Source: Echinarachnius parma (Eukaryota; Echinodermata; Echinoidea; Clypeasteroida; Echinarachniidae). From it: a stretch of 64,000 nt of DNA. Position 1 is the first letter of the stretch, and each line of letters starts with the position of its first letter. The stretch lies in NCBI GenBank assembly GCA_037951105.1, contig JBAMJV010008503.1, forward strand, positions 32,908-96,907. The letters run 5' to 3'. The notes beneath the pieces were generated by a model that saw nothing but the letters and a program-made list of their open reading frames with translations, had not been told where the DNA came from and searched no databases. The position numbers were made by a program, and so were the translations under genes. Shown here piece by piece: positions 23,899 to 44,535 of the stretch.

Positions 23899-24227
23899 TT
23901 AATGAAGAAGTTATTGTGTTCCAAACACTCCCTAATCGGAGAGAACAACGACACACAATTTTGAGCACTTGAGCACTATTTAGTGATAATTATACAGCAC
24001 TTTATAGATAACAAGTTTTCCTTATTTACAATTTCAATTTTATTTCACATTTCGTTTCATTTCATTTATTCAACCATAAAAACATAACAAAAAATCGCAA
24101 CATTTAGACATGAATACACTGTTTTATGGTTCGGACCATTAAGAAAGCATGGCTTGTAAAAAAATGGCCCTTAAACATACATATAAAATAAAACATACAA
24201 AATATAACTAATACAGATCACGCGCAT

Positions 24228-25350: not shown

Positions 25351-25551
25351 AAATATGACCACTCCAGTCTAAATATTCATTAATTAAAACACCAAGGAAC
25401 TTTACATTTTGTAATCGAGATATAATAACATTATCAATATGTAATGCAGGCAAATTAGTGGGTAATTTCCTGCTCCTTGTTCTAAAAATAATGTAGTTGG
25501 TTTTTGTTAGATTAAAGGCCAATTTATTGACCTTGAACCATACAAAACATA

Positions 25552-25794
25552 ACATGCACAATATTTTATTCAAAATGGTTGAAACCAATGAGATTTTAGA
25601 GAGCGCCCTCTTGACTTTTAACAGCTCTTTTTGAATGATAACAGGCTTTTTACTTAGTAAATTTGTAATGTTGTATTCCTTTCGAGCATGGTGGAGTTAT
25701 AACTGTTAGTTTGTAATGTATTGGTGCAGGTTTTGGTTACTGAAATTCAGTTTGACCCAAACTGTACTCTCTTTACCAAAACTCAACTATCCCT
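25552..25794 (+). mobile_element. MITE-A, right half
   Basis: Matches the right half of MITE-A (ATGGTTGAAACCAATGAG, GAGCGCCCTC, TGGTGGAGTTATAAC) and ends ACTCAACTATCCCT before TTAA (25795-25798). The left limit of the 9 kb tandem duplication falls inside it at ~25581. Confidence 0.8.
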
Positions 25795-25798
25795 TTAA

Positions 25799-25864
25799 TG
25801 AAGTTTGAAATATTGGATATTGCTCTTAAATTTGACGGTAAGAGCAGACCTGGTTGTGATGGTG
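25799..25864 (+). mobile_element. Remnant of a LINE RT between two MITEs
   Basis: Encodes FEILDIALKFDGKSRPGCDGV, which fits the KSPGxDGI segment at the start of CR1/Jockey-group RT domains. Both sides are cut at TTAA by MITE-A-type elements. The duplicate is at 35402-35467. Confidence 0.55.
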
Positions 25865-25868
25865 TTAA

Positions 25869-26370
25869 AGGGATAGTTGAGTTTTGGAATAGAGGGCGCT
25901 ACACAAAATATTTGTTTGTGAGATAATCAAAACTGAGTGTCTAATTTGAAAGAGCATACAAATTTAATGACAGAAAAAAATTTATTTGATCAAAATCGGT
26001 CCAGAAATGGCGGACAGATGTTTTTAAATAGTTGTTGATTATCTCTCTATCTAATCACTTTTTCAACAAAACATCACATGCGCACTATTTTATTTAAATG
26101 GTTGAAACCAATGAGTCACTCGATCAATCGAAAGCGTTCATCCCGATGTAATGATCTGTTTTTATACTCTAATTATACAATCAACAATTACTCAATTAAA
26201 CTAGTAATAAACAGTATTATAATCATTGAATATCAGTTTATCGAGGTAATCACCATCAGCAGCGGACCTCACGGATAATATAACTCTCAGGTCGGTTAAA
26301 CGAATAAAATACGTTAGCTTGTTTCTTTGTTCGACATGGTTTTATAAATACACAATTTTCATAACTGTTG
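25869..26370 (+). mobile_element. MITE-A2, left part
   Basis: Starts AGGGATAGTTGAGTTTTGG after TTAA (25865-25868) and follows MITE-A to ATGGTTGAAACCAATGAG (~26116). It then enters an A2-specific body shared with 21290-21540 (opposite strand) and 35720-35975. Right end not defined. Confidence 0.65.
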
Positions 26371-26785
26371 ATTTATTTATGATTAGGAATATGACTATGA
26401 ACCTTTCCCATTGAAACATACTGCATACGTAGCTGTGTGAAATGCGTTAAACTTTATACGAGATGAGACGAACACTCGTTATTGGTAATAAGCGGAGTAG
26501 AAATTTAGATCATCACATTTGCATAATTATGATACCGGCGAGTGAACCACACTAGATGGTCCTCATATATATATACAAGCGAAAAGTTAACTAATATATA
26601 CCACTTTGGTTTCTTCCTATATTTAAATAATTGCAAAGAATAATCATAAATGATACAAAAGAAAGAATAGTAGGCGTATATATATATATTTGTTTAAATG
26701 TAAAATTAACAAGCTAACATGTATGCATGATACCCACAATAATACATACAATAGTCAGTCGAATCTGTTACCGGGGTATTCTATA

Positions 26786-27233
26786 CAGAATGGCCCAGAA
26801 TTAATTACAACGGGACTCTTCAACGATAACGTTAAAGATAGTAGATCAATCAGAATGATATTTCAGGGTATGAAACTATAACTTATTACCTACATCTTGC
26901 AGAAAACCCTATTCGATTTGCTTCAGTGGTCATGGAGATGAGGATATTTTGTCAATCATGTCACGTACGTGTCCCATTTTTTTCATAACGCGTGAACACA
27001 ATGGGCAACGCGTCTCATTATGACTTGTACAAAACCTGGAGGGAAGGGACTTCTGACATGATTGACAAAAGATCCTCATTCTCCACGACCACTGAAGCAA
27101 ATCGAATGGGCTTTATGTAAGATGTAGGTAATAAGTTATAGTTTCATACCCTGAAATATCATTCTGATTGATCTACTATCGTTAAAGTTATCGTTGCAGA
27201 AATTCCCGTTGTAATTAATTCTGGGGCATGTTG
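26786..27233. mobile_element. Foldback MITE-E (448 bp), TA target site
   Basis: Two ~190 bp arms in inverted orientation (CCCAGAATTAATTACAACGG at 26794 against its complement ending ~27227; TTGCTTCAGTGGTCATGGAG against CTCCACGACCACTGAAGC). TA flanks both ends. The arms surround a ~65 bp centre containing GTGAACACAATGGGCAACGC. It would form a long cruciform. In unit 2 most of it is deleted (36107-36193). Confidence 0.75.
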
Positions 27234-27239
27234 TAGTCA

Positions 27240-28090
27240 TTCAACCTGCATAAAATGTTTATTGGTAAAATTAATAGTTTAAATTAATTGAGACGACCTG
27301 CAATATTTCATGTTGATGCAAAACACCTAGACATTGTAATCTCGGCCTTACCCTGCATGTATATACAGCAATTTGCGTTTTATATGTTGCATATTCGTGC
27401 CATAGAACTGAACTTATCATAATACTTATACAACGCTCATGTCTAATTGATGTACTTCTCTCTCCTATTGCCAGTTCTCATTTCCCTTCTATTTCTTTCT
27501 CCTCTTCATTCCTTTTGCCTATTCCCCTTTCCCTCTTAATCTCTTCTACCTTTTACTTAGCTCTCCACTTGCATTTTTTAATGTTCATACTGTGACATAT
27601 ATTCTTTGACAATGTATGTATGTAAATGCTTTTGCCATGTAACGTTGATAATTAGACGTTGTTTTATTATATAAACTATCAATTGTTATTCATTTTGATA
27701 TTGTGAACCCGAAATAATTTTCTATTGAGTTGGACCAATAAAATATATAAATAAATAAAATAATAATAACCAATACAATGTGGTTTGTGAGAACCGCTGG
27801 ATCGAGTTCCAAGTCAGTTTGAAGGATTTTTAAAGGTAAAGGCCAGTTTTGGAAACGCCCCCTCTCAAAAAAATGAAATGGAAGCTCTTATTACCAATAA
27901 TGTGAAAGAATATGTTTGTACTAATATAGGATCATAGGATCATAGGCCAAGAAACCGCCTACTCATTGATATATTGGCAAAATTATAAATTGATCTAGGG
28001 CCGGATAGATATCACCAACGCGGAATCGCTCATTCGCTACGTGTATTACGACCACGAGGTGTACACGAGATGTCGCGCTATACGGGCTTG
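27240..28090 (+). other. Pyrimidine-rich and AT-rich non-coding stretch
   Basis: A CT-rich tract (27440-27540) followed by AT-rich sequence ending in AATAAAATATATAAATAAAT (~27738). This looks like the 3' UTR and tail of a LINE, but no coding part is attached. The TTAA at 27536-27539 is the empty counterpart of the MITE-C insertion in unit 2. Confidence 0.5.
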
Positions 28091-28099
28091 TCCCAAGCT

Positions 28100-28310
28100 T
28101 GTCGATATCTCCCCCAGCGCTAGCGGCGCTGACAGGTCTGAACGGGCGGTGAATTTATGAATTTCACAGGCGGATATTGGATTCCTTCCGATATTTCTGT
28201 ATTTAACGATGCTTAGGTTCGGATTTTACCACACAAGCCCTATTTCAATACATATTCAACAATATTGATCAATATAGATGTATTTGGCTACTTTCCCGAA
28301 ACTGGACTTG
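28100..28310 (+). repeat. Dispersed repeat R2, copy 1
   Basis: The block TTTAACGATGCTTAGGTTCG, followed by ATTTTACCACACAAGCCC and a segment around TTGATCAATAT, recurs in inverted orientation at 45925-46120. The unit 2 copy is at ~37230-37440. No coding signature. Confidence 0.6.
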
Positions 28311-28884
28311 GGCTTTAACAATGATACTAGATTCTTTCAAGAAAGCAATTCTAGAAGGTAGAATACATCCTAGATTTCAGAGTATATAACATTATATTTG
28401 TTCTCTTACCTTTCACTCCACCCTCACTAGTCCCTGTGTCTGGATCCCGTGCCTGGATTATGATAACTTGATCATTTCGGCGATGATGCTTATTACAGAA
28501 AATGTGTCATTTACACAGCAAAACAAAAGTCCTTTAACATAGTTCGCAGTTAATTTGCCACAATTTTGCATGAAATATATTTATTTAAAAAACAAATATC
28601 GAGAATGAATACAAGATGAGGTATATTTATCGAACGTTCCACGCGGGTATGGGGTGAACACACTAGCTACGCGCAACTTTTGTATAGCTCATCAATGAGG
28701 ATGCAAAGGAAGAACTACTCAACTCGAACAGCGAATGAAAGCGAATGTACCATGACATTACGAAGAAACAAATCATAACCAAATTGATATCAATACAGTT
28801 TGGGACGATGTGTTTTTGTATTATTCAAAACCACTTGCTGTGATAAAAAAGGGAACGCAACTCATTTCCGCATATACATATTGA

Positions 28885-29131
28885 CCAATCACAGTCTTCT
28901 GTACTTCGGAACAATGAACTATTCAGCTCTGGTATGAGACACAGTGAAATTTCTCTTTGCCAAACCGTGTCATTGAAACTCAATTTCGCAAACAAAACAG
29001 TGACATATTTATAGCGCTTTCGTGACAAAACAAGTCAACTAGTCATAGTATACATGGTATACATGTGTACGTCGACTTCGCCCATGTTTGCTTCATCTGG
29101 GTAGTAATAATATACCTGGAAACACGCAAAG
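28885..29131 (+). promoter_or_regulatory. Putative promoter of UGT exon A
   Basis: ACCAATCACAG (CCAAT box at 28885-28889), CTTCGGAACAA and a TATTTATAG box (29006-29014), about 118 bp before the ATG, are conserved upstream of copies A, C and D at the same spacing. Each exon having its own promoter fits alternative first exons. Confidence 0.5.
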
Positions 29132-29975
29132 ATGTCTACTCTTTTCTTCGTCGTCGCAACCCTTATCCTCGTCTTGTCGACGAGCTACCCGACTCTTTCG
29201 GCCCGCATTCTGATAACGAGCGGGTCGAACTTCGGCAGTCACTTTTCGGTAATGTCGATGGTCGGCAAGGCGTTGTACGATCACGGCGCTGGTTAGCAGC
29301 GCGCACGAGCACAAAGCCAACGCGGATGATCCTAAATACGCGCACCTCACGTTCGACGTCTTTGTCGCTACCGAGGCACAGGCAACACGGGACTGGCCGG
29401 ACCTCTACGCCAAGTATGTCATCAAGAAAAGGTCTTCCGCCTTCGGGTTTCTCACCAACTGGCTACCACCTGGCGAGCTGCTTAATATGGCTGGCGAGTG
29501 CCGGGACATGTTAGTTCACTTCCACGTCAATGTGCCTCTCGCGTATGATCTCTTCATCGTAGATGCACACAGCCCCTGCTCTGTGTTCCTAGCGGGCCAC
29601 CTCGGCATCCCCTACGTCCTGCTGGTGCCAAGCGGCATCAAGCCGTCGATCGCTCGTCGTCATGGCATCTCGGACACGTCCGCGTACTACCCCGAGATGA
29701 GCACGGGTCTGTCGTATCGCATGACCTTCCTCCAGCGCGTTTCCAACTTGCTCACGGGTCTCCACGACGATGTGGCCGTCTTCTTCGCGTACGATGTCAT
29801 GGGGTTTGTTTACAGCATCAGATACAGCGTGAATGTCTCCGTCAGAAGCCTCGTGCCCAGCGCTCAACTCATCCTCATCAATAGCGACTTCTCCGTCGAC
29901 TTCCCATTTCCTATTTTGCCCAATGTCATCACGGTCGGCGGGCTGACAACGAAACCTTCTGTAGCTTTAAGCAAG
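29132..29975 (+). pseudogene. UGT first exon, copy A (frameshifted)
   Basis: Same exon as copy C: a signal peptide, the SGSNFGSHF motif with the catalytic His (residue 37), the DLFIVDAHSPC motif with the catalytic Asp, and an AAG|GTATGT donor at 29975/29976. A 14 bp deletion at ~29276-29280, between direct TACGA repeats that are still present in copy C, shifts the frame at codon 50. Translation from the ATG ends at TAG 29294-29296 after 54 codons. The rest stays open in another frame (from 29487), so the loss looks recent. Length is 844 nt against 858 in copies C and D. An error in the assembly could mimic this; the base change is otherwise clear. Confidence 0.9.
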
Positions 29976-30237
29976 GTATGTCTTTATTATCATAATTGTT
30001 ATTATTACGTTATACAAAACAAAGTTTGAACAATAATTCAAATGGTAAGACAAGATAACTGACTGCATCAAAGCTCCAACGCTCTACCAACTCCCCACTT
30101 TTGTTGGTGTCCCAAATAAGGTATTAAAATATATGATGGTAATTCGTTTTCTCTCGATGACTTTTCAAAACGTTTATTACAAAGCACCAATGTCTTTTCA
30201 AATGAAGCAAGAAATGAATGAAAACAAAAACGAAGGG

Positions 30238-30310
30238 CATGTTGGCTCTTTGGCAGAGCGTCCGCCTCTTGACCACGAGGCTGTGGATTCAAACCTCTGC
30301 AACCGGGCCG
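30238..30310 (+). repeat. tRNA-derived SINE head
   Basis: A-box-like TGGCAGAGCGT and B-box-like GGATTCAAACC at tRNA spacing, with a D-stem GCTC/GAGC. Relatives lie at 39419-39490 and 45093-45165, each at the same relative place after a UGT exon, so it was present before the UGT exons duplicated. Confidence 0.6.
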
Positions 30311-30809
30311 CAATATAATATTTTGGGGTTCAGATTGTTTTTTTTTAAATCTAACCATAACCCCAACTCTCACCATTATCGTAGCCCTATACCCTCATAC
30401 ACACAAACAGACTCGTTTTTAATAATTGCTACCACATATCATGTCCCGCAAATAATATACTAAAGTACAGGGTACTTTGGGGTAAGAAATCAATTCATGG
30501 CATTTATTAATACACGTGCAACACTCTAAAAATCCAAGATGGCTGTCCCTAACTTGCATATTCATGAATGTTATTATTTCTCTGAGCTTCCAAAAATCGT
30601 TAAAACGTTTCAAAGTTGAATCAGGGTTAAGATTGGTTAATATGAATGAAATATATTTAAAATTAGTTGCGCGGGATTTTGACAACCGTGGAAAATGCAT
30701 ATATTTAGCATAATTATGATTTAAATACTAAAAATTGCCTATGGCATAAAAGCGAGTCTATCCTGACTGGGGAAGGCTAACCAATCAATGTGTGCTTCCT
30801 AGCAGTCAC

Positions 30810-31215
30810 ACCGCCAAACCGAATCCAAACCGACACGAGACCGAATAATTCGGGGTGCTAGCGGGTTGGTGTCGATGTCGTATCGGAATTGTCGGTCTCT
30901 TGTCGGGGTCCAGTTCGGACTCCAAATTTGTGGGAGTGGGTGCTTTTGAGAGTGCTCGAAAGAACCCACTCGGACAAATTATCGGGGTGCTTGCGGGGAC
31001 GTCTCGGCGTCGTGTCGGGGATGGTTCGGGGAATGCGGGGAGGATTCGGAGTGGATTCCATCTGGTGTCGGGGTGAACATTCGGGCTGGGTTCGGTTCTG
31101 ATGCCATTTGGATTCGGCCGAACTGAAACCGCAAGAAAAAAAAAAAGAAAATGGTCTACCCGAATGATGCCCGCAACTCACCGATACCAAACCGAATCAA
31201 GACCGAATAGCCCTC
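30810..31215 (+). repeat. GC-rich repeat of CGG/CCGAA motifs
   Basis: GC-rich island in AT-rich DNA with CCAAACCGAATC and GACCGAATA at both ends in direct orientation. The internal ~135 bp period is marked by TCGGGGTGCTAGCGGG (~30850) and TCGGGGTGCTTGCGGGG (~30982). The + strand has several GGGG runs. Open frames on both strands are compositional. The unit 2 copy has an extra 10 bp (ACGTTCGGGG). Confidence 0.6.
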
Positions 31216-31477
31216 GAGCGATGCGATATTTACCCACTTGAGCACATCCGGTATTTGGAAGAGGGTCGATATTTTGGGCATATGTACCTATAATTTAGTG
31301 TTGGAAAAAATATATCCTCTATTGCTTTGAGCTATTCTATGAATATAATTCTAGTCAAGAAATTTGTTTAGACAATAACTAAAAGCAATAATATGTATCA
31401 ATCCACAAACTTTCGGCAACAGCGTATGTTTATTTGTAAGTGGCATGTTAGAGAGTCGATAATTGTGGGGGTGACTC

Positions 31478-31590
31478 CCCCCCCCCCCTCCCCCCAACAC
31501 CCCGTCGCCCCTGCTACCCCTTCCCCATATTATATCGTGGATTATTTTGTCTGATTTGCATTTGCTATAATTCCCCCCCCCCCCCCCCCT
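31478..31590. repeat. Two polyC tracts
   Basis: C runs at ~31478-31497 and 31573-31589, 80 bp apart. The unit 2 equivalents (~40663-40677, 40754-40769) differ in length, as expected from slippage. Confidence 0.85.
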
Positions 31591-31614
31591 TGCAACACCT
31601 TCACCCATATTATG

Positions 31615-31919
31615 TGATCTGATATGTCCACTGATCAGCTGATATGAATTATGTGTGAACATTCCGCGGTAATGACATGCCATGTGACCGAGTAATGTGC
31701 GAATTGCAACTTGCAATTCCCCTACTCATAACACCAACGTCATTCACAGTTGGAATTCTCCAAAAGAGACTTTGGAAATTTAAACACTTCAATAATACAT
31801 ATTTGCATAACAACATAGGCGTTTTTAAAACCAAAACCTGTTCTTAAATTGGTGATATGAATACAACGAGGTATGTGAGAAACACTCGGAAGTTTCTGGA
31901 CAATGTTACTAGATCCTTT
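31615..31919 (-). mobile_element. Decayed MITE-B
   Basis: The minus strand retains scattered MITE-B blocks (ATCTGATATGTCCACTG; CATGTGACCGAGTAATG; AACACTTCAATAAT on +). The right edge is ACAATGTTACTAGATCCTTT followed by TTAA, into which MITE-A inserted in unit 1 only. Confidence 0.55.
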
Positions 31920-31923
31920 TTAA

Positions 31924-32477
31924 AGGGAAAGTTGAGTTTTGGTAGAGAGGGCGCTAGACTACTTAATTGGTTTGTGAGGTAATGAAAAACTGAGTGTAAA
32001 ATTTGAAAGAGCATAATATTTAAACAATAAAATCATCTTTGTTTGATCAAAATCGGTTCAGAAACGGCTGAAATATCCATAAATATAACAATTTGTAATA
32101 AACCCGGGGCCCCGGGTTTATTAGAGAATTTTGAACCAGCCGTTAAAAATTCAAAAAAATGCTTCCTCTTTTCAAAAAGTTACAAAATAGGTATTTAAAT
32201 AGTTGTTGGTTATTTCTCTATCTAATCACTATTTCAACAAAGCATCACATGCACAATATTTGATTCAAAATGGTTGAAACCGATGAGTGTTTAGAGAGCG
32301 CCCTCTTACGTTTTAACGGCTCTTTTGAATGATAGCATGATCTTTACTACGTCATTTGTAATTTTGTGTTCCTTTCTAGTTATAACTATTAGTTTGTAAT
32401 GTAATGATGCAGGTTTTGGTTACTAAAATTCAGTTTCACTAAAACTGTACTCTCCTTACCAGAACTCAACTATCCCT
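31924..32477 (+). mobile_element. MITE-A, full copy (554 bp), unit-1-specific insertion
   Basis: Starts AGGGAAAGTTGAGTTTTGG after TTAA (31920-31923) and ends ACTCAACTATCCCT before TTAA (32478-32481). Unit 2 has a single TTAA at 41099-41102 with flanks otherwise matching, so this is a filled/empty pair. Confidence 0.9.
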
Positions 32478-32658
32478 TTAAGTAATTTATGAGTCTGGAA
32501 GTTAAGTAGAAACAAGCAAAAACAAGCACTATGCAGATAAAACATTACTGCTATTTAATGACCAGTCTTGTTTATTTCTATCATTATAATATTACATTCA
32601 AACATATAAAGAAACTGACCAGAAATATAACGTGATTAAAAGAGACCAAAGAAAATGA

Positions 32659-32731
32659 GATTCCAACGGGATTCGAACCCGAGACCTACGGATTGCTAGA
32701 CAGGTGCTCTTACCGACTGAGCTATAGAAAC
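32659..32731 (-). tRNA. tRNA-Ala(AGC)-like sequence, probably SINE-derived
   Basis: The minus strand folds roughly as a 73 nt cloverleaf: acceptor GTTTCTA/TGGAATC with one mismatch, D-stem GCTC/GAGC, anticodon loop CTAGCAA (AGC at 32695-32697 on the + complement) and T-loop TTCGAAT on a CGGG/CCCG stem. The anticodon stem pairs poorly. A second copy lies 290 bp away within the same longer repeat (TATAAAGAAACTGACCAG upstream on +), which points to a tRNA-derived SINE rather than a working tRNA gene. Confidence 0.5.
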
Positions 32732-32948
32732 CCCTAGTACGGCGCTCGTTCCTGAAACCCCTTAATTGTCATTGCTCGAGTGGTCAGAAGCTATTATAAA
32801 CCTGACATAAACCCGAAGGATATAAATCAACTTGGGGATATATGCGAGGGATCACCGAAGTGATGCAGCCTTTTTTGAATAATTAATTCAAACATATAAA
32901 GAAACTGACCAGAAATATAGTGTGATTAAAAGAGAGCAAAGAAAATGG

Positions 32949-33021
32949 GATTCCAACGGGATTCGAACCCGATACCTCTGGATTGCTAGACCGGTGCTCT
33001 TACCGACTGAGCTATAGAAAA
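32949..33021 (-). tRNA. tRNA-Ala(AGC)-like sequence, probably SINE-derived (second copy)
   Basis: Same structure as 32659-32731 with a different, also imperfect anticodon stem (CCGGT against TCCAG) and a weaker first acceptor pair. Same flanking repeat, tandem orientation. Confidence 0.45.
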
Positions 33022-33364
33022 CCCTAGTACGGCGCTCGTCCCTAATTATAATATTCAGTGAAATATTCCATAATTTCACTTTCAAAATAAGCAACACAGA
33101 TAGCCAGATCCCTCCAGGTACAATACATATGTTGTTTCATTTAAGTTCAGGATTACTTCATCCTGTATTTTGACAAAGAAAATAATTATAATGAAACATA
33201 AATCGGGAAAAAATCGCACACAATCATTTTTAGTTCAGTTGGGAAATAGAACATGAAACTGATATCGGGGCTTGAATTGAATTGAATAGAGTTGAATAGC
33301 TAAACAAAGATAATCGCATCAATGTGTTTAAAAAGAACAAGCGCTTTGTCGCAAAAACTGACAA

Positions 33365-33905
33365 ACCGTTGATTAATATGTATTTCGGTGATCTGATGTT
33401 TGAAAATGATATGGTAAATGAATGTCATATGACCGAGTAACGAGCGAAAATGCTAATCGAAATTATTCGCTCACTCAATACACCGACTTTGTACAAAGTT
33501 ATTATTATACAGTAGATACTTGTATATCCGAACACTTCAATCAGAAGAGCATTCAACCAAAAGGCGCTAAATCCACTTTTTCAATTTCCGAGGAAAAGAT
33601 GTTTCTTTGTCCCACTTTGTACACGTGTGCCTTTGGGAATATGAAAATTGAACTTTCTATATTTTGATGTTGAGTGAGTTATTTGTCGTAAAATGTGGAT
33701 TCCTAGATAGCTACGTAGATAATACATGTAGATATATCGTTAACTCAATTTTTATGGAAAGTGGATTTAGCGCCTTTTGGAAGTGAGCTCTTCATATCTT
33801 AAACAATGGAAGAGAAAATTTGGAAAACCGAAAGCTGTTTCATGCTTCTATTAGTACTACGAATACAATAAGGTGGGTGGAAACCGCTAGAATTCCAAGT
33901 AAGAA
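33365..33905 (-). mobile_element. MITE-B remnant hosting MITE-D
   Basis: Minus-strand MITE-B blocks (CATATGACCGAGTAACGAGC, GACTTTGTAC, GAACACTTCAATC, then ACGAATACAATAAGGT and CCGCTAGAATTCCAA on +) flank a 250 bp inverted-repeat element. Both MITE-B termini are gone. The same arrangement is in unit 2 at ~42360-42885. Confidence 0.6.
33544..33793. mobile_element. MITE-D (250 bp) nested in MITE-B
   Basis: Outer inverted repeats GAAGAGC/GCTCTTC, then after a variable 6 bp a perfect 23 bp inverted repeat beginning CCAAAAGGCGCTAAATCC. No coding. A related, more diverged copy is at 56056-56405. Confidence 0.75.
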
Positions 33906-34447
33906 AGCAATTCTAGAAAGTAAAGTACATCCTAGATTGAAGAGTCAATCAAATCATTTATTTATAACATTATAACATTTTTCCTCTTACCTTTCATAAG
34001 GTAGCTTGTAGATACGCGGAGCGAGTATTTGTATAATCCACCATCTCTAGTCTCTGTGTCTGGATCCCCGTGTCTGGATTATGATAACTTGCTAACTTTG
34101 ATTTTTTTTTATATCGAGAATGAATACAAGATGAGGAATATGTATCGAACAGGTTCCATGCGGTTATGGGGTGAACACATTAGCTACGCGCTACTTTTGA
34201 ATCGCTCACCCATGATGATGCCGAAAGCAGGTCGAATCAACTCGAATGAAAACGAATTAACAATGCAGATCATGACATTATTAAAAGAAAATAAGATCGT
34301 AACCATAAAAACATCTATGCAGTTTGGCATGATGGTTTTGTTATTATTAGAAGACATTTTGTATTCAAAACCACTGGGTGAGACGAAAAGGAGAGAACGG
34401 AACTGATTTGCGCATGCCTAATACCGTAAATACCATGTACATGTTCA

Positions 34448-34618
34448 CCAATCACATTCTTCTGAACTTCGGAACAACCTACACTTCAGTTTTGCAAACA
34501 AAAAAGTGACAGATTTATCGCGCTGTCGTGACAACAAGTCATGGTGTACATGTGGGCGTCGACTTCGTCCATGTTCGTTTCGTCTGCGTAGTAATAATAG
34601 ACCTGGAAACACGCAAAG
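34448..34618 (+). promoter_or_regulatory. Putative promoter of UGT exon B, shortened
   Basis: CCAAT box at 34448-34452 and CTTCGGAACAA are kept. Relative to copy D, 57 bp is missing between two TTTTG direct repeats (after CTTCAG), so box spacing differs from copies A, C and D. Confidence 0.5.
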
Positions 34619-34792
34619 ATGTCTACTCTTTTCTTCGTCGTCGCAACCCTTATCATCGTCTTGTCGACGAGCTACCCGACTCTTTCGGCCCGCATTCTGA
34701 TAACGAGCGGGTCAAACTTCGGCAGTCACTTTTTGGTAATGTCGATGGTCGGCAAGGCGTTGTACGACCAGGGTCATACGATCACGGCGCTG
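34619..34792 (+). pseudogene. UGT first exon, copy B (truncated at the duplication junction)
   Basis: Encodes the first 58 codons of the UGT exon: signal peptide, SGSNFGSHF and GHTITAL. The exon then stops at CACGGCGCTG and continues directly into MITE-A sequence, and the frame ends a few codons later. The break point is the tandem-duplication junction, and copy D (43678) is the intact original of this copy. It carries an F-L-V in place of the F-S-V of copies A, C and D after the His. No splice donor remains, so it cannot act as a first exon. Confidence 0.9.
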
Positions 34793-35005
34793 AAACCAAT
34801 GAGATTTTAGAGAGCGCCCTTTTGACTTTTAACAGCTCTTTTTGAATGATAACAGGCTTTTTACTTAGTACATTTGTAATGTTGTATTCCTTTCGAGCAT
34901 GGTGGAGTTATAACTGTTAGTTTGTAATGTATTGGTGCAGGTTTTGGTTACTGAAATTCAGTTTGACCCAAACTGTACTCTCTTTACCAAAACTCAACTA
35001 TCCCT
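34793..35005 (+). mobile_element. MITE-A right half (duplicate of 25582-25794)
   Basis: Starts abruptly at AAACCAATGAG at the duplication junction and ends ACTCAACTATCCCT at TTAA (35006-35009), where MITE-B is inserted. Confidence 0.85.
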
Positions 35006-35009
35006 TTAA

Positions 35010-35397
35010 AGGGACTTAGTAACATTGTCCAAATCCTCAAAATAAAATTGTAATTCTAGCGGTTCCTTTATACCTTGTTGTATTCGTATTAACAATAAAA
35101 TCATGGGACAGCTTTCGGTTTTTCAAATTTCCCTTTCATTACAAAGATATGTATGATTGAAGTATTTAGATAAGAAAATCTCCGGGCGAGATTTTCATCC
35201 CTGTACAAAGTGAATGCAGTGAGTTGGTGAATATCACCCAATATCACTTTGCATTTTCGCTCATTACTTGGCCATACATTGTCCATTTGACCTGAAATTT
35301 TCACACAATACCCTGAGGACATATGAGATAACAACAGTATACATTGCATCAACCATTCATCAGTTTTTGTACATCTCAACAAAGTTACTAGATCCCT
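35010..35397 (+). mobile_element. MITE-B, intact copy (388 bp), unit-2-specific insertion
   Basis: Flanked by TTAA (35006-35009 and 35398-35401). Termini AGGGACTTAGTAAC and GTTACTAGATCCCT. The unit 1 counterpart is a single TTAA at 25795-25798. Only three differences from the copy at 41772 were seen over 388 bp, so both are young. Confidence 0.92.
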
Positions 35398-35471
35398 TTA
35401 ATGAAGTTTGAAATATTGTATATTGCTCTTAAATTTGACGGTAAGAGCAAACCTGGTTGTGATGGTGTTAA

Positions 35472-35975
35472 AGGGATAGTTGAGTTTTGTAATAGAGGGC
35501 GCTACACAAAATATTTGTTTGTGAGATAATCAAAACTGAGTGTCTAATTTGAAAGAGCATACAATTTTAATGACAGAATAAACTTTATTTGATCAAAATC
35601 GGTCCAGAAATGGCGGACAGATGTTTTTAAATAGTTGTTGATTATCTCTCTATCTAATCACTTTTCAACAAAACATCACATGCGCACTATTTTATTTAAA
35701 TGGTTGAAACCAATGAGTCACTCGATCAATCGAAAGCGTTCATCCCGCTGTAATGATCTGTTTTTATACTCTAATTATACAATCAACAATTACTCAATTA
35801 AACTAGTAATAAACAGTATTATAATCATTGAATATCAGTTTATCGAGGTAATCACCATCAGCAGCGGACCTCACGGATAATTTAACTCTCATGTCGGTTA
35901 AACGAATAAAATACGTTAGCTTGTTTCTTTGTTTGACATGGTTTTATAAATACACAATTTTCATAACTGTTGATT
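35472..35975 (+). mobile_element. MITE-A2, left part (duplicate of 25869-26370)
   Basis: Starts AGGGATAGTTGAG after TTAA (35468-35471) and is collinear with unit 1 through the A2-specific body. Confidence 0.65.
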
Positions 35976-36106
35976 TATTTATGATTAGGAATATGACTAT
36001 GAACCTTTCCCATTGAAACATACTGCATACGTAGCTGTGTGAAATGCGTTAAACTTTATACGAGATGAGACGAACACTCGTTATTGGTAATAAGCGGAGT
36101 AGAAAT

Positions 36107-36193
36107 ACCCTGAAATATCATTCTGATTGATCTACTGTCGTTAAAGTTATCGTTGCAGAAATTCCCGTTGTAATTAATTCTGGGGCATGTTGT
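36107..36193 (-). mobile_element. Foldback MITE-E remnant after deletion
   Basis: Only the outer ~87 bp of the right arm survive. The junction AGTAGAAAT|ACCCTGAAAT joins bases equivalent to unit 1 positions 26504 and 27148, removing 643 bp with 1-2 bp of microhomology. Confidence 0.8.
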
Positions 36194-36496
36194 AGTCATT
36201 CAACCTGCATAAAATGTTTATTGGTAAAATTATTAGTTTAAATTAATTGAGAAGACCTGCAATATTTCATGTTGATGCAAAACACCTAGAAATTGTAATC
36301 TCGGCCTTACCCTGCATGTATACAGCAATTTGCGTTTTATATGTTGCATATTCGTGCCATAGAACTTAAATTATCATAATACTTATACAACGCTCATGTC
36401 TAATTGATGTACTTCTCTCTCCTATTGCCAGTTCTCATTTCCCTTCTATTTCTTTCTCCTCTTCATTCCTTCTGCCTATTCCCCTTTCCCTCTTAA

Positions 36497-36654
36497 AGGT
36501 AGTTCAGATTCGTCAAATGAGATGCGCGGCGCCATCTTGCATACGCGTTGCGCACGGTGCGTAATGCACGTTAGCTCAGTGTCATGCAGTGCGCGCAAAC
36601 TAACCCAGTTCAAAATGGCGACCCGCTATGTAGCATCCCCACGCTTGATGCCCT
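36497..36654. mobile_element. MITE-C (158 bp), GC-rich, unit-2-specific insertion
   Basis: Flanked by TTAA (36493-36496; 36655-36658); unit 1 has one TTAA at 27536-27539. Starts AGGTAGTTCAG and ends TTGATGCCCT. Terminal complementarity is only a few bases. CpG-rich body with GCGCGGCGCC and ACGCGTTGCGCACGGTGCG. No other copy was noticed in the window. Confidence 0.85.
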
Positions 36655-38017
36655 TTAATCTCTTCTACCTTTTCCTTATCTCGCTCTCCACTTGCATTTT
36701 TTTAATGTTCATACTGTGACATATATTCTTTGACAATGTATGTATGTAAATGCTTTTGTCATGTAACGTTGATAATTAGACGTTGTTTTATTATATAAAC
36801 TATCAATTGTTATTCATTTTGATATTGTGAACCCGAAATAATTTTCTATTGAGTTGGACCAATAAAATATATAAATAAATAAAATAATAATAACCAATAC
36901 AATGTGGTTTGTGAGAACCGCTGGATCGAGTTCCAAGTCAGTTTGAAGGATTTTTAAAGGTAAAGGCCAGTTTTGGAAACGCCCCCTCTCAAAAAAATGA
37001 AATGGAACTATGGAAGCTCTTATTACCAATAATGTGAAAGAATATGTTTGTACTAATATAGGATCATAGGATCATAGGCCAAGAAACCGCCTACTCATTG
37101 ATATATTGGCAAAATTATAAATTGATCTAGGGCCGGATAGATATCACCAACGCGGAATCGCTCATTCGCTACGTGTATTACGACCACGAGGTGTACACGA
37201 GATGTCGCGCTATACGGGCTTGTCCCTAGCTTGTCGATATCTCCCCCAGCGCTAGCGGCGCTGACAGGTCTGAACGGGCGGTGAATTTATGAATTTCACA
37301 GGCGGATATTGGATTCCTTCCGATATTTCTGTATTTAACGATGCTTAGGTTCGGATTTTACCACACAAGCCCTATTTCAATACATATTCAACAATATTGA
37401 TCAATATAGATGTATTTGGCTACTTTCCCGAAACTGGACTTGGGCTTTAACAATGATACTAGATTCTTTCAAGAAAGCAATTCTAGAAGGTAGAATACAT
37501 CCTAGATTTCAGAGTATATAACATTATATTTGTTCTCTTACCTTTCACTCCACCCTCACTAGTCCCTGTGTCTGGATCCCGTGCCTGGATTATGATAACT
37601 TGATCATTTCGGCGATGATGCTTATTACAGAAAATGTGTCATTTACACAGCAAAACAAAAGTTCTTTAACATAGTTCGCAGTTAATTTGCCACAATTTTG
37701 CATGAAATATATTTATTTAAAAAACAAATATCGAGAATGAATACAAGATGAGGTATATTTATCGAACGTTCCACGCGGGTATGGGGTGAACACACTAGCT
37801 ACGAGCAACTTTTGTATAGCTCATCAATGAGGATGCAAAGGAAGAACTACTCAACTCGAACAGCGAATGAAAGCGAATGTACCATGACATTACGAAGAAA
37901 CAAATCATAACCAAATTGATATCAATACAGTTTGGGACGATGTTTTTTTTGTATTATTCAAAACCACTTGGTGTGATAAAAAAGGGAACGCAACTCATTT
38001 CCGCATATACATATTGA

Positions 38018-38264
38018 CCAATCACAGTCTTCTGTACTTCGGAACAATGAACTATTCAGCTCTGGTATGAGACACAGTGAAATTTCTCTTTGCCAAACCG
38101 TGTCATTGAAACTCAATTTCGCAAACAAAACAGTGACATATTTATAGCGCTTTCGTGACAAAACAAGTCAACTAGTCATAGTATACATGGTATACATGTG
38201 TACTTCGACTTCGCCCATGTTCGCTTCATCTGGGTAGTAATAATATACCTGGAAACACGCAAAG
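38018..38264 (+). promoter_or_regulatory. Putative promoter of UGT exon C
   Basis: CCAAT box at 38018-38022, CTTCGGAACAA and TATTTATAG about 118 bp before the ATG; essentially identical to the copy A upstream region. Confidence 0.5.
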
Positions 38265-39122
38265 ATGTCTACTCTTTTCTTCGTCGTCGCAACCCTTATC
38301 CTCGTCTTGTCGACGAGCTACCCGACTCTTTCGGCCCGCATTCTGATAACGAGCGGGTCGAACTTCGGCAGTCACTTTTCGGTAATGTCGATGGTCGGCA
38401 AGGCGTTGTACGACCAGGGTCATACGATCACGGCGCTGGTTAGCAGCGCGCACGAGCACAAAGCCAACGCGGATGATCCTAAATACGCGCACCTCACGTT
38501 CGACGTCTTTGTCGCTACCGAGGCACAGGCAACACGGGACTGGCCGGACCTCTACGCCAAGTATGTCATCAAGAAAAGGTCTTCCGCCTTCGGGTTTCTC
38601 ACCAACTGGCTACCACCTGGCGAGCTGCTTAATATGGCTGGCGAGTGCGGGGACATGTTAGTTCACTTCCACGTCAATGTGCCTCTCGCGTATGATCTCT
38701 TCATCGTAGATGCACACAGCGCCTGCTCTGTGTTCCTAGCGGGCCACCTCGGCATCCCCTACGTCCTGCTGGTGCCGAGCGGCATCAAGCCGTCGATCGC
38801 TCGTCGTCATGGCATCTCGGACACGTCCGCGTACTACCCCGAGATGAGCACGGGTCTGTCGTATCGCATGACCTTCCTCCAGCGCGTTTCCAACTTGCTC
38901 ACGGGTCTCCACGACGATGTGGCCGTCTTCTTCGCGTACGATGTCATGGGGTTTGTTTACAGCATCAGATACAGCGTGAATGTCTCCGTCAGAAGCCTCG
39001 TGCCCAGCGCTCAACTCATCCTCATCAATAGCGACTTCTCCGTCGACTTCCCATTTCCTATTCTGCCCAATGTCATCACGGTCGGCGGGCTGACAACGAA
39101 ACCTTCTGTAGCTTTAAGCAAG
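38265..39122 (+). CDS. UDP-glycosyltransferase first exon, copy C (N-terminal acceptor-binding half)
   Basis: 858 nt, 286 codons, phase 0, with donor AAG|GTATGT. Residues 1-24 are a signal peptide (hydrophobic core VVATLILVL, then LSA), followed by RILITSGSNFGSHF. His37 matches the catalytic base of GT1 enzymes and Asp149 in YDLFIVDAH its charge-relay partner. GHTITAL and PYVLLVPSGIKPS are further family blocks, and the exon ends ITVGGLTTKPSVALSK. In the family this half binds the lipophilic acceptor in the ER lumen; the UDP-sugar-binding half, with its HGG...DQ signature, is absent and must come from later exons. Human UGT1A1 coding exon 1 is likewise ~288 codons in phase 0. Unusual: Ala153 where copies A, B-type D and E have Pro (xPCS). 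Codons are GC-rich compared with the AT-rich flanks. Confidence 0.88.
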
Positions 39123-39418
39123 GTATGTCTTTATTATCATAATTGTTATTATTACGTTATACAAAACAAAGTTTGAACAATAATTTAAATGGTAAGACAA
39201 GATAACTGACTGCATCAAAGCTCCAACGCTCTACCAACTCCTCACTTTTGTTGGGTGTCCCAAATAAGGTATCATTAAAATATATGATGGTAATTGTTGA
39301 AATGGAAGCAATATTTCAAATTCGTTTTCTCTCGATGACTTTTGAAAACGTTTATTACAAAGCACCAATGTCTTTTCAAATGAAGCAAGAAATGAATGAA
39401 AACAAAAACGAAGGGCAT

Positions 39419-39490
39419 GTTGGCTCGTTGGCAGAGCGTCCGCCTCTTGACCACGAGGCTGTGGATTCAAACCTCTGCAACCGGGTCGCA
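39419..39490 (+). repeat. tRNA-derived SINE head (duplicate of 30238-30310)
   Basis: Same A- and B-box-like elements (TGGCAGAGCGT; GGATTCAAACC), 297 bp after the exon C donor. Confidence 0.6.
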
Positions 39491-39983
39491 ATATAATATT
39501 TTGGGGTTCAGATTGTTTTTTAAAAATCTAACCATAACCCCAACTCTCACCATTATCGTAGCCCTATACCCTCATACACACAAACAGACTAGTTTTTAAT
39601 AATTGCTACCACATATCATGTCCCGCAAATAATATACTAAAGTATAGGGTACTTTGGGGTAAGAAATCAATTCATGGCATTTATTAATACACGTGCAACA
39701 CTCTAAAAATCCAAGATGGCTGTCCCTAACTTGCATATTCATGAATGTTATTATTTCTCTGAGCTTCCAAAAATCGTTAAAACGTTTCAAAGTTGAATCA
39801 GGGTTAAGATTGGTTAATATGAATGAAATATATTTAAAATTAGTTGCGCGGGATTTTGACAACCGTGGAAAATGCATATATTTAGCATAATTATGATTTA
39901 AATACTAAAAATTGCCTATGGCATAAAAGCGAGTCTATCCTGACTGGGGAAGGCTAACCAAACAATGTGTACTTCCTAGCAGT

Positions 39984-40395
39984 CACACCGCCAAACCGAA
40001 TCCAAACCGACACGAGACCGAATAATTCGGGGACGTTCGGGGTGCTAGCGGGTTGGTGTCGATGTCGTATCGGAATTGTCGGTCTCTTGTCGGGGTCCAG
40101 TTCGGACTCCAAATTTGTCGGAGTGGGTGCTTTTGAGCGTGCTCGAAAGAACCCACTCGGACAAATTATCGGGGTGCTTGCGGGGACGTCTCGGCGTCGT
40201 GTCGGGGATGGTTCGGGGAATGCGGCGAGGATTCGGAGTGGATTCCATCTGGTGTCGGGGTGAAAATTAGGGCTGGGTTCGGTTCTGATGCCATTTGGAT
40301 TCGGCCGAACTGACACCGCAAGAAAAAAAAAAGAAAATGTTCTACCCGAATGATGCCCGCAACTCACCGATACCAAACCGAATCAAGACCGAATA
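39984..40395 (+). repeat. GC-rich CGG/CCGAA repeat (unit 2 copy)
   Basis: Collinear with 30810-31215 but with a 10 bp addition ACGTTCGGGG near 40033 and scattered substitutions. Confidence 0.6.
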
Positions 40396-40661
40396 GCCCT
40401 CGAGCGATGCGATATTTACCCACTTGAGCACATCCGGTATTTGGAAGAGGGTCGATATTTTGGGCATATGTACCTATAATTTAGTGTTGGAAAAAATATA
40501 TCCTCTATTGCTTTGAGCTATTCTATGAATATAATTCTAGTCAAGAAATTTGTTTAGACAATAACTAAAAGCAATAATATGTATCAATCCACAAACTTTC
40601 GGCAACAGCGTATGTTTATTTGTAAGTGGCATGTTAGAGAGTCGATAATTGTGGGGGTGAC

Positions 40662-40770
40662 TCCCCCCCCCCCCCCGACACCCCGTCGCCCCTGCTACCC
40701 CTTCCCCATATTATATCGTGGATTATTTTGTCTGATTTGCATTTGCTATAATTTCCCCCCCCCCCCCCTT
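40662..40770. repeat. Two polyC tracts (unit 2 copy)
   Basis: C runs at ~40663-40677 and 40754-40769, lengths changed relative to unit 1. Confidence 0.85.
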
Positions 40771-40794
40771 GCAACACCTTCACCCATATTATGT

Positions 40795-41098
40795 GATCTG
40801 ATATGTCCACTGATCAGCTGATATGAATTATGTGTGAACATTCCGCGGTAATGACATGCCATGTGACCGAGTAATGTGCGAATTGCAACTTGCAATTCCC
40901 CTACTCAAAACACCAACGTCATTCACAGTTGGAATTCTCCAAAAGAGACTTTGGAAATTTAAACACTTCAATAATACATATTTGCATAACAACTTAGGCG
41001 TTTTGAAAACCAAAACCTGTTCTTAAATTGGTGATATGAATACAACGAGGTATGTGAGAAACACTCGGAAGTTTCTGGACAATGTTACTAGATCCTTT
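40795..41098 (-). mobile_element. Decayed MITE-B (unit 2 copy)
   Basis: Duplicate of 31615-31919. It ends at an intact TTAA (41099-41102) that carries no insertion here. Confidence 0.55.
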
Positions 41099-41285
41099 TT
41101 AAGTAATTTATGAGTCTGGAAGTTAAGTAGACACAAGCAAAAACATATACAAGCACTATGCAGATCAAACATTACTGCTATTTAATGACCAGTCTTGTTT
41201 ATTTCTATCATTATAATATTACATTCAAACATATAAAGAAACTGACCAGAAATATAACGTGATTAAAAGAGACCAAAGAAAATGA

Positions 41286-41358
41286 GATTCCAACGGGATT
41301 TGAACCCGAGACCTACGGATTGCTAGACAGGTGCTCTTACCGACTGAGCTATAGAAAC
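41286..41358 (-). tRNA. tRNA-Ala(AGC)-like sequence, probably SINE-derived (unit 2)
   Basis: Duplicate of 32659-32731 with a T-loop substitution (TTCAAAT instead of TTCGAAT), which weakens the B box. Confidence 0.4.
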
Positions 41359-41575
41359 CCCTAGTACGGCGCTCGTTCCTGAAACCCCTTAATTGTCATT
41401 GCTCGAGTGGTCAGAAGCTATTATAAACCTGACATAAACCCGAAGGATATAAATCAACTTGGGGATATATGCGAGGGATCACCGAAGTGATGCAGCCTTT
41501 TTTGAATAATTAATTCAAACATATAAAGAAACTGACCAGAAATATAGTGTGATTAAAAGAGAGCAAAGAAAATGG

Positions 41576-41648
41576 GATTCCAACGGGATTCGAATCCGAT
41601 ACCTCTGGATTGCTAGACCGGTGCTCTTACCGACTGAGCTATAGAAAA
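41576..41648 (-). tRNA. tRNA-Ala(AGC)-like sequence, probably SINE-derived (unit 2, second copy)
   Basis: Duplicate of 32949-33021 with one change in the T-stem (CGGATTCGAATCCCG on the minus strand). Confidence 0.4.
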
Positions 41649-41771
41649 CCCTAGTACGGCGCTCGTCCGTAATTATAATATTCAGTGAAATATTCCATAA
41701 TTTCACTTTCAAAATAAGCAACACATATAACCAGCTCCCTCCAGGTGCAATAAATATGTTGTTTCATTTAA

Positions 41772-42159
41772 AGGGACTTAGTAACATTGTCCAAATCCTC
41801 AAAATAAAATTGTATTTCTAGCGGTTCCTTTATACCTTGTTGTATTCGTATTAACAATAAAATCATGGGACAGCTTTCGGTTTTTCAAATTTCCCTTTCA
41901 TTACAAAGATATGTATGATTGAAGTATTTAGATAAGAAAATCTCCGGGCGAGATTTTCATCCCTGTACAAAGTGAATGCAGTGAGTTGGTGAATATCACC
42001 CAATATCACTTTGCATTTTCGCTCATTACTTGGCCATACATTGTCCATTTGACCTGAAATTTTCACACAATACCCTGAGAACATATGAGATAACAACAGT
42101 ATACATTGCATCAACCATTCATCAGTTTTTGCACATCTCAACAAAGTTACTAGATCCCT
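41772..42159 (+). mobile_element. MITE-B, intact copy (388 bp), second unit-2-specific insertion
   Basis: Flanked by TTAA (41768-41771; 42160-42163); unit 1 has one TTAA at 33141-33144 with matching flanks (GTTGTTTCA and GTTCAGGATTACTTC). Same length as, and only three visible differences from, 35010-35397. Confidence 0.92.
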
Positions 42160-42359
42160 TTAAGTTCAGGATTACTTCATCCTGTACTTTGACAAAGAAA
42201 ATAATTATAATGAAACATACTAGAACATGAAACTGATATCGGGGCTTGAATTGAATTGAATAGAGTTAAATAACTAAACAAAGATAATCGCATCAATCTG
42301 TTTAAAGGGATCAAGCTGCTTTGTAGACATGTGCAAAAACTGTCAAACCGTTGATTAAT

Positions 42360-42885
42360 ATGTATTTCTGTGATCTGATGTTTGAAAATGATATGGTAAA
42401 TGAATGTCATATGACCGAGTAACGAGCGAAAATGCTAATCGAAATTATTCGCTCACTCAATGCACCGACTTTGCACAAAGTTATTATTATACAGTAGATA
42501 CTTGTATATCCGAACACTTCAATCAGAAGAGCATTCAACCAAAAGGCGCTAAATCCACTTTTTCAATTTCCGAGGAAAAGATGTTTCTTTGTCCCACTTT
42601 GTACACGTGTGCCTTTGGGAATATGAAAATTGAACTTTCTATATTTTGATGTTGAGTGAGTTATTTGTCGTAAAATGTGGATTCCTAGATAGCTACGTAG
42701 ATAATACATGTAGATATATCGTTAACTCAATTTTTATGGAAAGTGGATTTAGCGCCTTTTGGAAGTGAGCTCTTCATATCTTAAACAATGGAAGAGAAAA
42801 TTTGGAAAACCGAAAGCTGTTTCATGCTTCTATTAGTACTACGAATACAATAAGGTGGGTGGAAACCGCTAGAATTCCAAGTAAG
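42360..42885 (-). mobile_element. MITE-B remnant hosting MITE-D (unit 2 copy)
   Basis: Duplicate of 33365-33905. Nested MITE-D at 42526-42775 is again 250 bp with GAAGAGC/GCTCTTC ends. Confidence 0.6.
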
Positions 42886-43439
42886 AAAGCAATTATAGAA
42901 AGTAAAGTACATCCTAGATTGAAGAGTCAATCAAATCATTTATTTATAACATTATAACATTTTTCCTCTTACCTTTCATACGGTAGCTTGTAGATACGCG
43001 GAGCGAGTATTTGTATAATCCACCATCTCTAGTCTCTGTGTCTGGATCCCTTTGTCTGGATTATGATAACTTGATAACTTTTTTTAATTTTTTGTATCGA
43101 GAATGAATACAAGATGACTAGATGAGGAATATTTATCGAACAGGTTCCATGCGGTTATGGGGTGAACACATTAGCTACGCGCTACTTTTGAATCGCTCAC
43201 CCATGAGGATGCCGAAAGCAAGACGAATCAACTCGAATGAAAACGAATGAACCATGCAGCTCATGACATTAATACAAAAATAAAATAAGATCGTACCATA
43301 AACACATCTATGCAGTTTGGCATGATGGTTTTGTTATATTAGAATACATTTTGTATTCAAAACCACTAGGTGTGACGAAAAGGAGAGAACGGAACTGCTT
43401 TGCGCATGCCTAATACCGTAAATACCATGTACATGTTCA

Positions 43440-43677
43440 CCAATCACAGTCTTATGAACTTCGGAACAACCTACACTTCAGTTTTGGTGTGAGACTCAGT
43501 TAAATTCCTCTCTGCCAAACAGTGTCATTAAAACTAAATTTTGCATACAATAAAGTGACAGATTTATCGCGCTTTCGTGACAACACAAGCCAACAAGTCA
43601 TGGTATACATGTGGGCGTCGACTTCGTCCATGTTCGTTTCGTCTGCGTAGTAATAATAGACCTGGAAACACGCAAAG
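43440..43677 (+). promoter_or_regulatory. Putative promoter of UGT exon D
   Basis: CCAAT box at 43440-43444, CTTCGGAACAA and GTGACAGATTTATCGCGC correspond to the boxes of copies A and C. The TATA-like box is altered to ATTTATCG, so strength may differ. Confidence 0.45.
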
Positions 43678-44535
43678 ATGTCTACTCTTTTCTTCGTCGT
43701 CGCAACCCTTATCCTCGTCTTGTCGACGAGCTACCCGACTCTTTCGGCCCGCATTCTGATAACGAGCGGGTCAAACTTCGGCAGTCACTTTTCGGTAATG
43801 TCGATGGTCGGCAAGGCGTTGTACGACCAGGGTCATACGATCACGGCGCTGGTTAGCGGCGCGCACGAGCACAAGGCCAACGCGGACGATCCCAAATACG
43901 CGCACCTCACGTTCGACATCTTTGTCGCCACCGAGGCAAAGGCAACACGGGACTGGCCTGACCTCTACGCCAAGTATGTCATCAAGAAAAGGTCTTCCGC
44001 CTTCGGGTCTCTCACCAACTGGCTACCACCTGGCGAGCTTCTTAAGATGGCTGGCGATTGCTGGGACATGTTGGCTCACTTCCACGACAATGTGCCTCTC
44101 GCGTATGATCTTTTCATCGTCGATGCACACAGCCCCTGCTCTGTGTTCCTAGCGGCCCACCTCGGCATCCCCTACGTCCTGCTGGTGCCGAGCGGCATTA
44201 AACCTTCTATCGCTCGTCGTCATGGCATCTCGGACACGTCCACGTACTACCCCGAGATGAGCACGGGCCTGTCGTATCGCATGACTTTCCTCCAGCGCGT
44301 CTCCAACTTCCTCACGGGTCTCAACGACGATGTGACCGTCTTCTTCGTGTACGATGTCATGGGATTTGTTTACAGCTTCAGATACAAGGTGAATGTCTCC
44401 GTCAGAAGCCTCGTGCCCAGCGCTCAACTCATCCTCATCAATAGCGACTTCGCCGTCGACTTCCCATTTCCCATTCTGCCAAATGTCATCACTGTCGGCG
44501 GGCTGACAACAAAACCGAGTGTAGCTTTAAGCAAG
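43678..44535 (+). CDS. UDP-glycosyltransferase first exon, copy D (N-terminal acceptor-binding half)
   Basis: 858 nt, 286 codons, phase 0, donor AAG|GTATGT. Signal peptide residues 1-24; His37 in SGSNFGSHF; Asp149 in YDLFIVDAHSPCS (Pro retained, unlike copy C). It differs from copy C at scattered residues (for example SGAHEH, EAKATRDW, WDMLAHFHDNVP, FSFRYKVNV), concentrated in the region that in the family lines the acceptor pocket, so acceptor preference may differ. It is the intact parent of truncated copy B. The 3' flank resembles that of A and C (the SINE and other blocks), showing an older duplication before the 9 kb one. Shared downstream exons were not found before 64 kb. Confidence 0.88.

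Follow-up and report, generated by a model that had tools for sequence, protein, structure and literature searches.

Probable post-duplication insertion of three families of short TTAA-flanked elements, and their likely Kolobok affinity, in a tandem locus of Echinarachnius parma

Short DNA elements bounded by TTAA are known from hosts as distant as frogs and corals, and they have been attributed to different transposases. In Xenopus, the miniature inverted-repeat transposable elements (MITEs) called T2-MITEs are defined by TTAA together with AGGRR, and the portions of their description that concern us here name Kolobok as the probable motor, report insertion polymorphism within species and give the THAP domain as usual in Kolobok transposases (PMC6004289). 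The passages on targets and termini in another account describe Kolobok elements as making TTAA duplications and having 5'-RR and YY-3' ends, "unlike piggyBac", and those of the Kol0 group as encoding a transposase plus KolX, the latter resembling the C-terminal part of P2X7 (PMC9587614). The terminal inverted repeats of piggyBac, as far as they are treated in two further sources, start with CCYT (PMC5601938; PMC2872659), and the second of these assigns TTAA MITEs of corals to piggyBac. Here we set beside these systems a locus of the echinoid Echinarachnius parma, in which two adjoining 9-kb units differ by four short elements of three families, termed A, B and C. The window, that is, the whole stretch of DNA analysed, is 64 kb long (C8488:32908-96907 in our contig numbering); it served as the first comparison set and was followed by the whole source genome (1.20 Gb in 14,790 contigs).

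The history that we propose is a simple one. A segment of about 9 kb carrying UDP-glycosyltransferase (UGT) exons would have been tandemly duplicated first, after which four non-autonomous DNA elements of three families would have transposed into single TTAA sites, each insertion duplicating the TTAA, with Kolobok-superfamily transposases (THAP-type DNA binding, RR...YY ends, TTAA target) most likely acting in trans. We consider this history, post-duplication insertion of A, of B twice and of C with Kolobok as the likely source of transposase, to be probable. The process itself is ordinary TTAA-targeted MITE insertion, whose mechanism is already known.

Four filled and empty sites in two tandem units

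The features on which the comparison depends are as follows (positions are those of the window).

25580-34790, no strand assigned: unit 1; holds MITE-A and is empty for B1, B2 and C
34791-43849, no strand assigned: unit 2; holds B1, C and B2 and is empty for A
31924-32477, plus strand: MITE-A, 554 bp, AGGGAAAG...CTATCCCT; TTAA at 31920-31923 and 32478-32481
41099-41102, no strand assigned: empty TTAA for MITE-A in unit 2
35010-35397, plus strand: MITE-B copy 1 (B1), 388 bp, in the TTAA that borders an older MITE-A copy on the right
25795-25798, no strand assigned: empty TTAA for B1 in unit 1, at the right edge of the older MITE-A copy
41772-42159, plus strand: MITE-B copy 2 (B2), 388 bp, with 3 differences from B1
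33141-33144, no strand assigned: empty TTAA for B2 in unit 1
36497-36654, plus strand: element C, 158 bp, AGGTAGTTCA...TTGATGCCCT, 54% GC, with a very short terminal inverted repeat only
27536-27539, no strand assigned: empty TTAA for C in unit 1
25542-25794, plus strand: older MITE-A fragment whose right TTAA is the B1 target; cut by the unit boundary at 25580
31600-31923, minus strand: stretch containing an old MITE-B-like sequence, the left end of which is next to the TTAA that MITE-A entered

A reading of this DNA made from the letters alone (hereafter the sequence-only reading) had described four filled and empty pairs, each differing by one element plus one TTAA, and had concluded that three unrelated families moved after the duplication. 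The pairs are exactly where it placed them. Every filled site has the form TTAA-element-TTAA, every empty site is one TTAA at exact coordinates, and the timing also holds, with each element present in one unit and a single TTAA standing in the other. The three families are indeed unrelated by the measure applied, no BLAST match being found between A, B and C at E<=1e-3.

The units themselves are very similar. They differ at 109 of 7951 aligned columns (1.37%), or at 66 of 6998 (0.94%) when two dense bins are left out, and the 200-bp flanks at the four pairs show only 2-7 mismatches between units. Gap columns are absent from four of the eight flanks and number 4, 10 and 12 in three others; the right flank of B2, which contains a 45-bp unit-specific indel, has 90. 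Five internal indels of at least 100 bp separate the aligned units, and four of these are A, B1, B2 and C (a sixth alignment gap, of 151 bp, is the part of the query past the end of unit 2 and is not counted). The fifth, 643 bp at 26503-27145 and present in unit 1 only, has ends without TTAA; it was probably lost from an inverted-repeat element in unit 2 by a deletion at short microhomology. As TTAA accounts for 573 of the 5542 TA dinucleotides of the window, a TA-targeting element would strike TTAA at four sites out of four with a chance of (0.103)^4 = 1e-4. The strings TTAAAGGG and CCCTTTAA occur 13 and 12 times, against 1.3 and 1.6 expected under a first-order Markov model.

The units meet at 34790/34791 without a gap and with 2 bp of microhomology, a UGT exon being joined at its middle to the inside of the older MITE-A copy. 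Such a junction fits a true tandem duplication, and this we infer the units to be. It might be asked instead whether they are two alleles of one locus set side by side by the assembler, so that the pairs would be allelic polymorphisms. Among the 40 scored of 1778 candidate matches to the stretch around the C site, only two copies above 90% identity reach the site, and both lie on this contig; moreover, some C loci with the same flanks sit on separate contigs (L065/L066, L067-L069, L073/L074 and L076/L077), which means that some duplicate or haplotype contigs remain in the assembly. The junction, however, does not look like the overlap that an assembler would leave, and we regard the allelic explanation as improbable. 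The logic of filled and empty sites is valid for tandem units and for alleles alike.

The three families and their TTAA target across the genome

The genome queries were scored on 40 rows each, drawn from a longer list of first-look candidates. MITE-A is a large young family: from 1902 candidates, all 40 scored rows are full-length or nearly so at 96-100% identity. MITE-B is old and sparse, apart from a few new copies that are identical; of its 89 candidates 40 were scored, among which three stand at 100% identity, another at 90% and the 36 remaining primary rows no higher than 83%, and this list is incomplete, since B2, at 99.2% to B1, is absent from it. Element C, with 432 candidates, belongs to a moderate family. 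The recent activity claimed in the sequence-only reading is thus borne out by the uniform A rows and by B1, which is identical to two other copies.

A and B are short, non-coding and multi-copy, and have terminal inverted repeats, as is expected of MITEs; of the first 16 terminal bases, 14 in A and 13 in B match the opposite end. Both end as AGGG...CCCT in the window, with AGGGA at both ends, and so conform to the AGGRR of T2-MITEs. Element C ends as AGGT...CCCT, and other C copies also as ...ACCT. Its two ends share AGG and scattered subterminal matches only, and they read AGGTA/AGGGC in the window copy and AGGTA/AGGTC in many others, outside AGGRR; C is not filed as a T2-MITE. Near the ends of C lie CGCCATCTTG and CGCCATTTTG, in inverted orientation, which we take to be reminiscent of YY1 sites. 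The centre of MITE-A (32096-32123) is a 28-bp perfect palindrome that gives an opposite-strand match of 100% in many scored copies.

The target was scored genome-wide at both ends of the 30 best-scoring loci of each family (26 of the 30 C loci have distinct flanks, and MITE-B was sampled down to about 68% identity, its exceptions including old copies). Among copies with both ends intact, TTAA stands at both ends in 27 of 28 for A, 8 of 10 for B and 21 of 23 for C. The claim that all three families use TTAA therefore extends well beyond the window. A related MITE-A subfamily behaves in the same manner: with a query running through the right edge of the older copy, 37 of 38 other rows match to the last TTAA base or beyond and one stops a base short of the TTAA end, though the rows may include one locus on two contigs. 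Because a TA target lying between T and A yields identical filled and empty strings, single sites are compatible with duplication of TA only, TTAA being coincidental. Such a target predicts TTAA beside about 10% of copies, however, against nearly all the intact copies examined, and at this sample size the proposal is refuted; we give it practically no chance, and the TA-only outcome against which the earlier reading had staked its claim did not appear.

Choice among TTAA sites may involve the adjoining base. A T stands there on 24 of 112 site sides, whereas a background taken from the window alone has 490 of 1146 (Fisher p = 7.5e-6). By family the depletion is strong in A (8/54, p = 2.7e-5) and by itself short of significance in C (12/42, p = 0.08) and B (4/16, p = 0.20), with no significant difference between A and C (p = 0.13).

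Elements sometimes adjoin one another across a common TTAA: B1 sits on A, another B on C (L033) and a third B on B (L035), and two MITE-A copies share the TTAA at C2148:117929-117932. The idea that insertions favor a TTAA already bordering another element was considered and dropped for want of enrichment: abutting sites are 0/28 for A, 3/10 for B and 2/23 for C, and the background rate is 9.1% of 3010 TTAA. In these figures the regular expression misses L033 and the A site of the window, and the background follows a slightly wider rule. The resemblance to MITE-B of the stretch at 31600-31923 is well above chance (alignment score 170, maximum 63 in 200 shuffles). Its left end beside MITE-A was rejected as the edge of a free-standing element, the surrounding repeat running through.

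Two further observations concern these families within the window. An element with long inverted ends (TACCGTATGTCCC...), at 12227-15912, interrupts a MITE-B copy; a reverse-transcriptase frame lies within the element. Another TTAA-bounded element, at 23536-23902 with ends AGGGATGCCTGTAAAG and AGGTGCACCTGTAAAG, is probably a fourth family.

Insertion, excision and age

A clean empty TTAA is by itself indistinguishable from a seamless excision, and footprint-free excision is described for piggyBac in the relevant part of one source (PMC7351741). It was accordingly suggested in the sequence-only reading that some empty sites had been vacated rather than never filled. The surroundings of the sites speak otherwise. 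The A, B2 and C sites all lie inside older repeats, and other copies of those repeats continue across the site, leaving no room for an insert. At the A site this applies to all 39 primary rows from outside the units (83-94% identity), at the B2 site to 38 of 38 other rows (84-91%) and at the C site to 30 of 47 non-unit matches (71-80%), the rest not reaching the site. The stretch around C is pyrimidine-rich and its matches are weaker than those at A and B2. These results were read as alignment rows, 40 being scored of 2957 (A), 1732 (B2) and 1778 (C) candidates, and since filled repeat copies would split and rank lower the fractions are not frequencies. Because other copies run through without an insert, the empty state predates the units at the A, B2 and C sites.

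The fourth site has no outgroup copies, a point in favor of excision there, and the polarity of B1 would have to come from its youth: its 388 bp are identical to those of two copies with other flanks (L032 and L033), and it carries no private mutation. (The repeat around the B copy at L032 has a relative without the insert at 47019-47730 of the window, where the site is too diverged to show TTAA.) What is described of excision in the KolobokP lineage, which has other target lengths, is a loss of 1-5 flanking bp (PMC9587614), a further point against seamless departure; our search of the literature found nothing on excision or transposition activity of Kolobok at TTAA, by which we do not mean that nothing is in print. 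All four elements are best read as insertions, excision not being needed, and we consider it very unlikely that even some of the empty sites were produced by excision.

The youth of A, B1 and C is also seen in their sequences. The window MITE-A differs from the majority of 27 copies, those most similar to it, by one substitution and one indel column. Element C differs from its majority at 6 positions, each found in at least two other copies, so that none is private. Counting private substitutions gives 1 for A, 0 for B1, 3 for B2 (against B1, L032 and L033) and 0 for C, a total of 4 in 1488 bp.

Candidate transposases and comparison with known systems

Kolobok-like genes are present in the genome. 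Domain searches give 31 places with P2RX7_C and 150 with THAP. At 15 of the 31 P2RX7_C places a THAP domain lies no more than 20 kb away; every one of these pairs is convergent, with the two domains 9.7-16.8 kb apart, and uniform placement would give 0.15 pairs. The pairs represent 14 contigs and 14 THAP places (C2627 gives two), and several of them are copies of one element, so that they are not 15 separate events. The contigs are these.

Contigs with THAP/P2RX7_C pairs: C1, C849, C1721, C4095, C4817, C5065, C32, C5332, C604, C1397, C12372, C2627, C1477, C9942

Six of the pairs score identically in the two domain searches, suggesting that a single element has recently been copied. Because Kol0 encodes a transposase together with KolX, which resembles the C terminus of P2X7, the pairs are most likely large autonomous Kol0-type Kolobok elements, as judged from the two domains.

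The sequence-only reading had left the choice between piggyBac-type and Kolobok-type transposases. Both are found in this genome and both look recently multiplied, and the ends of the elements bear on the choice. A, B and C have the TTAA duplication and the 5'-RR...YY-3' termini of Kolobok; the TTAA target of piggyBac is shared as well, whereas its CCYT motif is missing, the 5' ends being AGGG or AGGT. The RR...YY ends, with AGGRR in A and B, thus lean toward Kolobok and the T2-MITEs and away from piggyBac, and we infer from them that Kolobok was the source of transposase and that one kind of transposase served all three families. By the same token, the type of end suggests that the elements behind the THAP/P2RX7_C pairs may be the ones that move A, B and C.

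The opposite assignment, by which A, B and C would be piggyBac-type MITEs and owe their movement to the piggyBac transposases abundant in the genome, has a precedent in the coral MITEs. The coral elements, called CMITEs, are alike in being short TTAA MITEs with filled and empty alleles but retain the CC[C/T]T motif of piggyBac (PMC2872659, in the sections on these elements), and A, B and C begin with AGG. About 0.8 of the 1.0 kb following one piggyBac frame was read (L091 and L092, with a 209-bp gap between them), the terminus not having been reached. It contains four TTAA, none of them with CCCT before it, and its similarity to A, B and C is confined to matches of 8-13 bp in L092 and one 22-bp match to A (86%, E=0.003) in L091. 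We judge a piggyBac origin to be unlikely. As to the piggyBac family itself, 551 bp taken from the end of one frame give 38 of 40 scored rows, self included, that are full-length or nearly so at 94-100%, and copies such as C10266:18540-20874 carry an internal repeat in their long 3' region, the terminus not being reached within about 1.0 kb downstream.

Several observations weigh against the history proposed above. piggyBac transposases are abundant and many are near-identical (118 PF13843 matches, of which about 100 are free of internal stops, the near-identical 453-aa frames numbering in the dozens), and piggyBac also duplicates TTAA. No autonomous element with the ends of A, B or C was found, the THAP/P2RX7_C loci being known by domain matches alone, and element C falls outside AGGRR. 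The mutational evidence for insertion after the duplication is modest, with 4 private substitutions against 10.2 expected at the age of the duplication (P=0.026), or against 7.0 without the two dense bins (P=0.17). A, B1 and C taken together have 1 in 1100 bp (P = 0.005, or 0.035 without the dense bins), a test from which B2 was left out after the data were seen; B2, whose private differences number 3, does not fall below the 2.7 that the time since the duplication would give it (388 bp times the per-lineage rate).

Among described systems, the Xenopus T2-MITEs come close in their TTAA target, in the AGGRR of the window copies of A and B and in recent amplification. They differ in host, and C, with its AGGTA/AGGGC ends, lies outside AGGRR; the likeness, measured against the published definition, is one of ends and target (PMC6004289). 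Kol0, the Kolobok-1_XT group, is alike in TTAA, in RR...YY ends and, as far as the published description of KolX allows comparison, in the pairing of THAP with a KolX-like P2RX7_C (PMC9587614). The pairs here are convergent and 9.7-16.8 kb apart, and their connection to A, B and C would be through the ends.

The window itself has little to add on the transposase. It has 101 listed frames of at least 80 aa; among the 18 stop-to-stop frames tested, Pfam found no transposase domain, with a reverse transcriptase in 2, UDPGT in 4 and no match in 12. The UGT exon at 29275 is 14 bp shorter in unit 1 than in unit 2, and the open frame there is shorter. Each unit also has two tRNA-like sequences in a tandem 290-bp repeat (32657-33022 and 41285-41646), with relatives elsewhere in the genome; ARAGORN calls those of unit 1 only, one of them as tRNA-Ala AGC. 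A scan of IMG/VR viral contigs for the A end, the B end and a UGT relative found none, and may omit matches from the source genome.

The locus thus presents four insertion events in one place, three of them polarized by the surrounding repeats, and the divergence of its units, about 1%, is a clock for dating MITE bursts. It is also conceivable, though doubtful, that a single Kol0-like pool of THAP and KolX moves three families that share little beyond AGG and TTAA, with a choice of target that avoids an adjacent T. Were this so, recognition would consist of a minimal end plus subterminal signals, and would extend to an element such as C with almost no terminal inverted repeat. In a genome where both motors look recently multiplied, which motor moves which TTAA MITE is directly testable.

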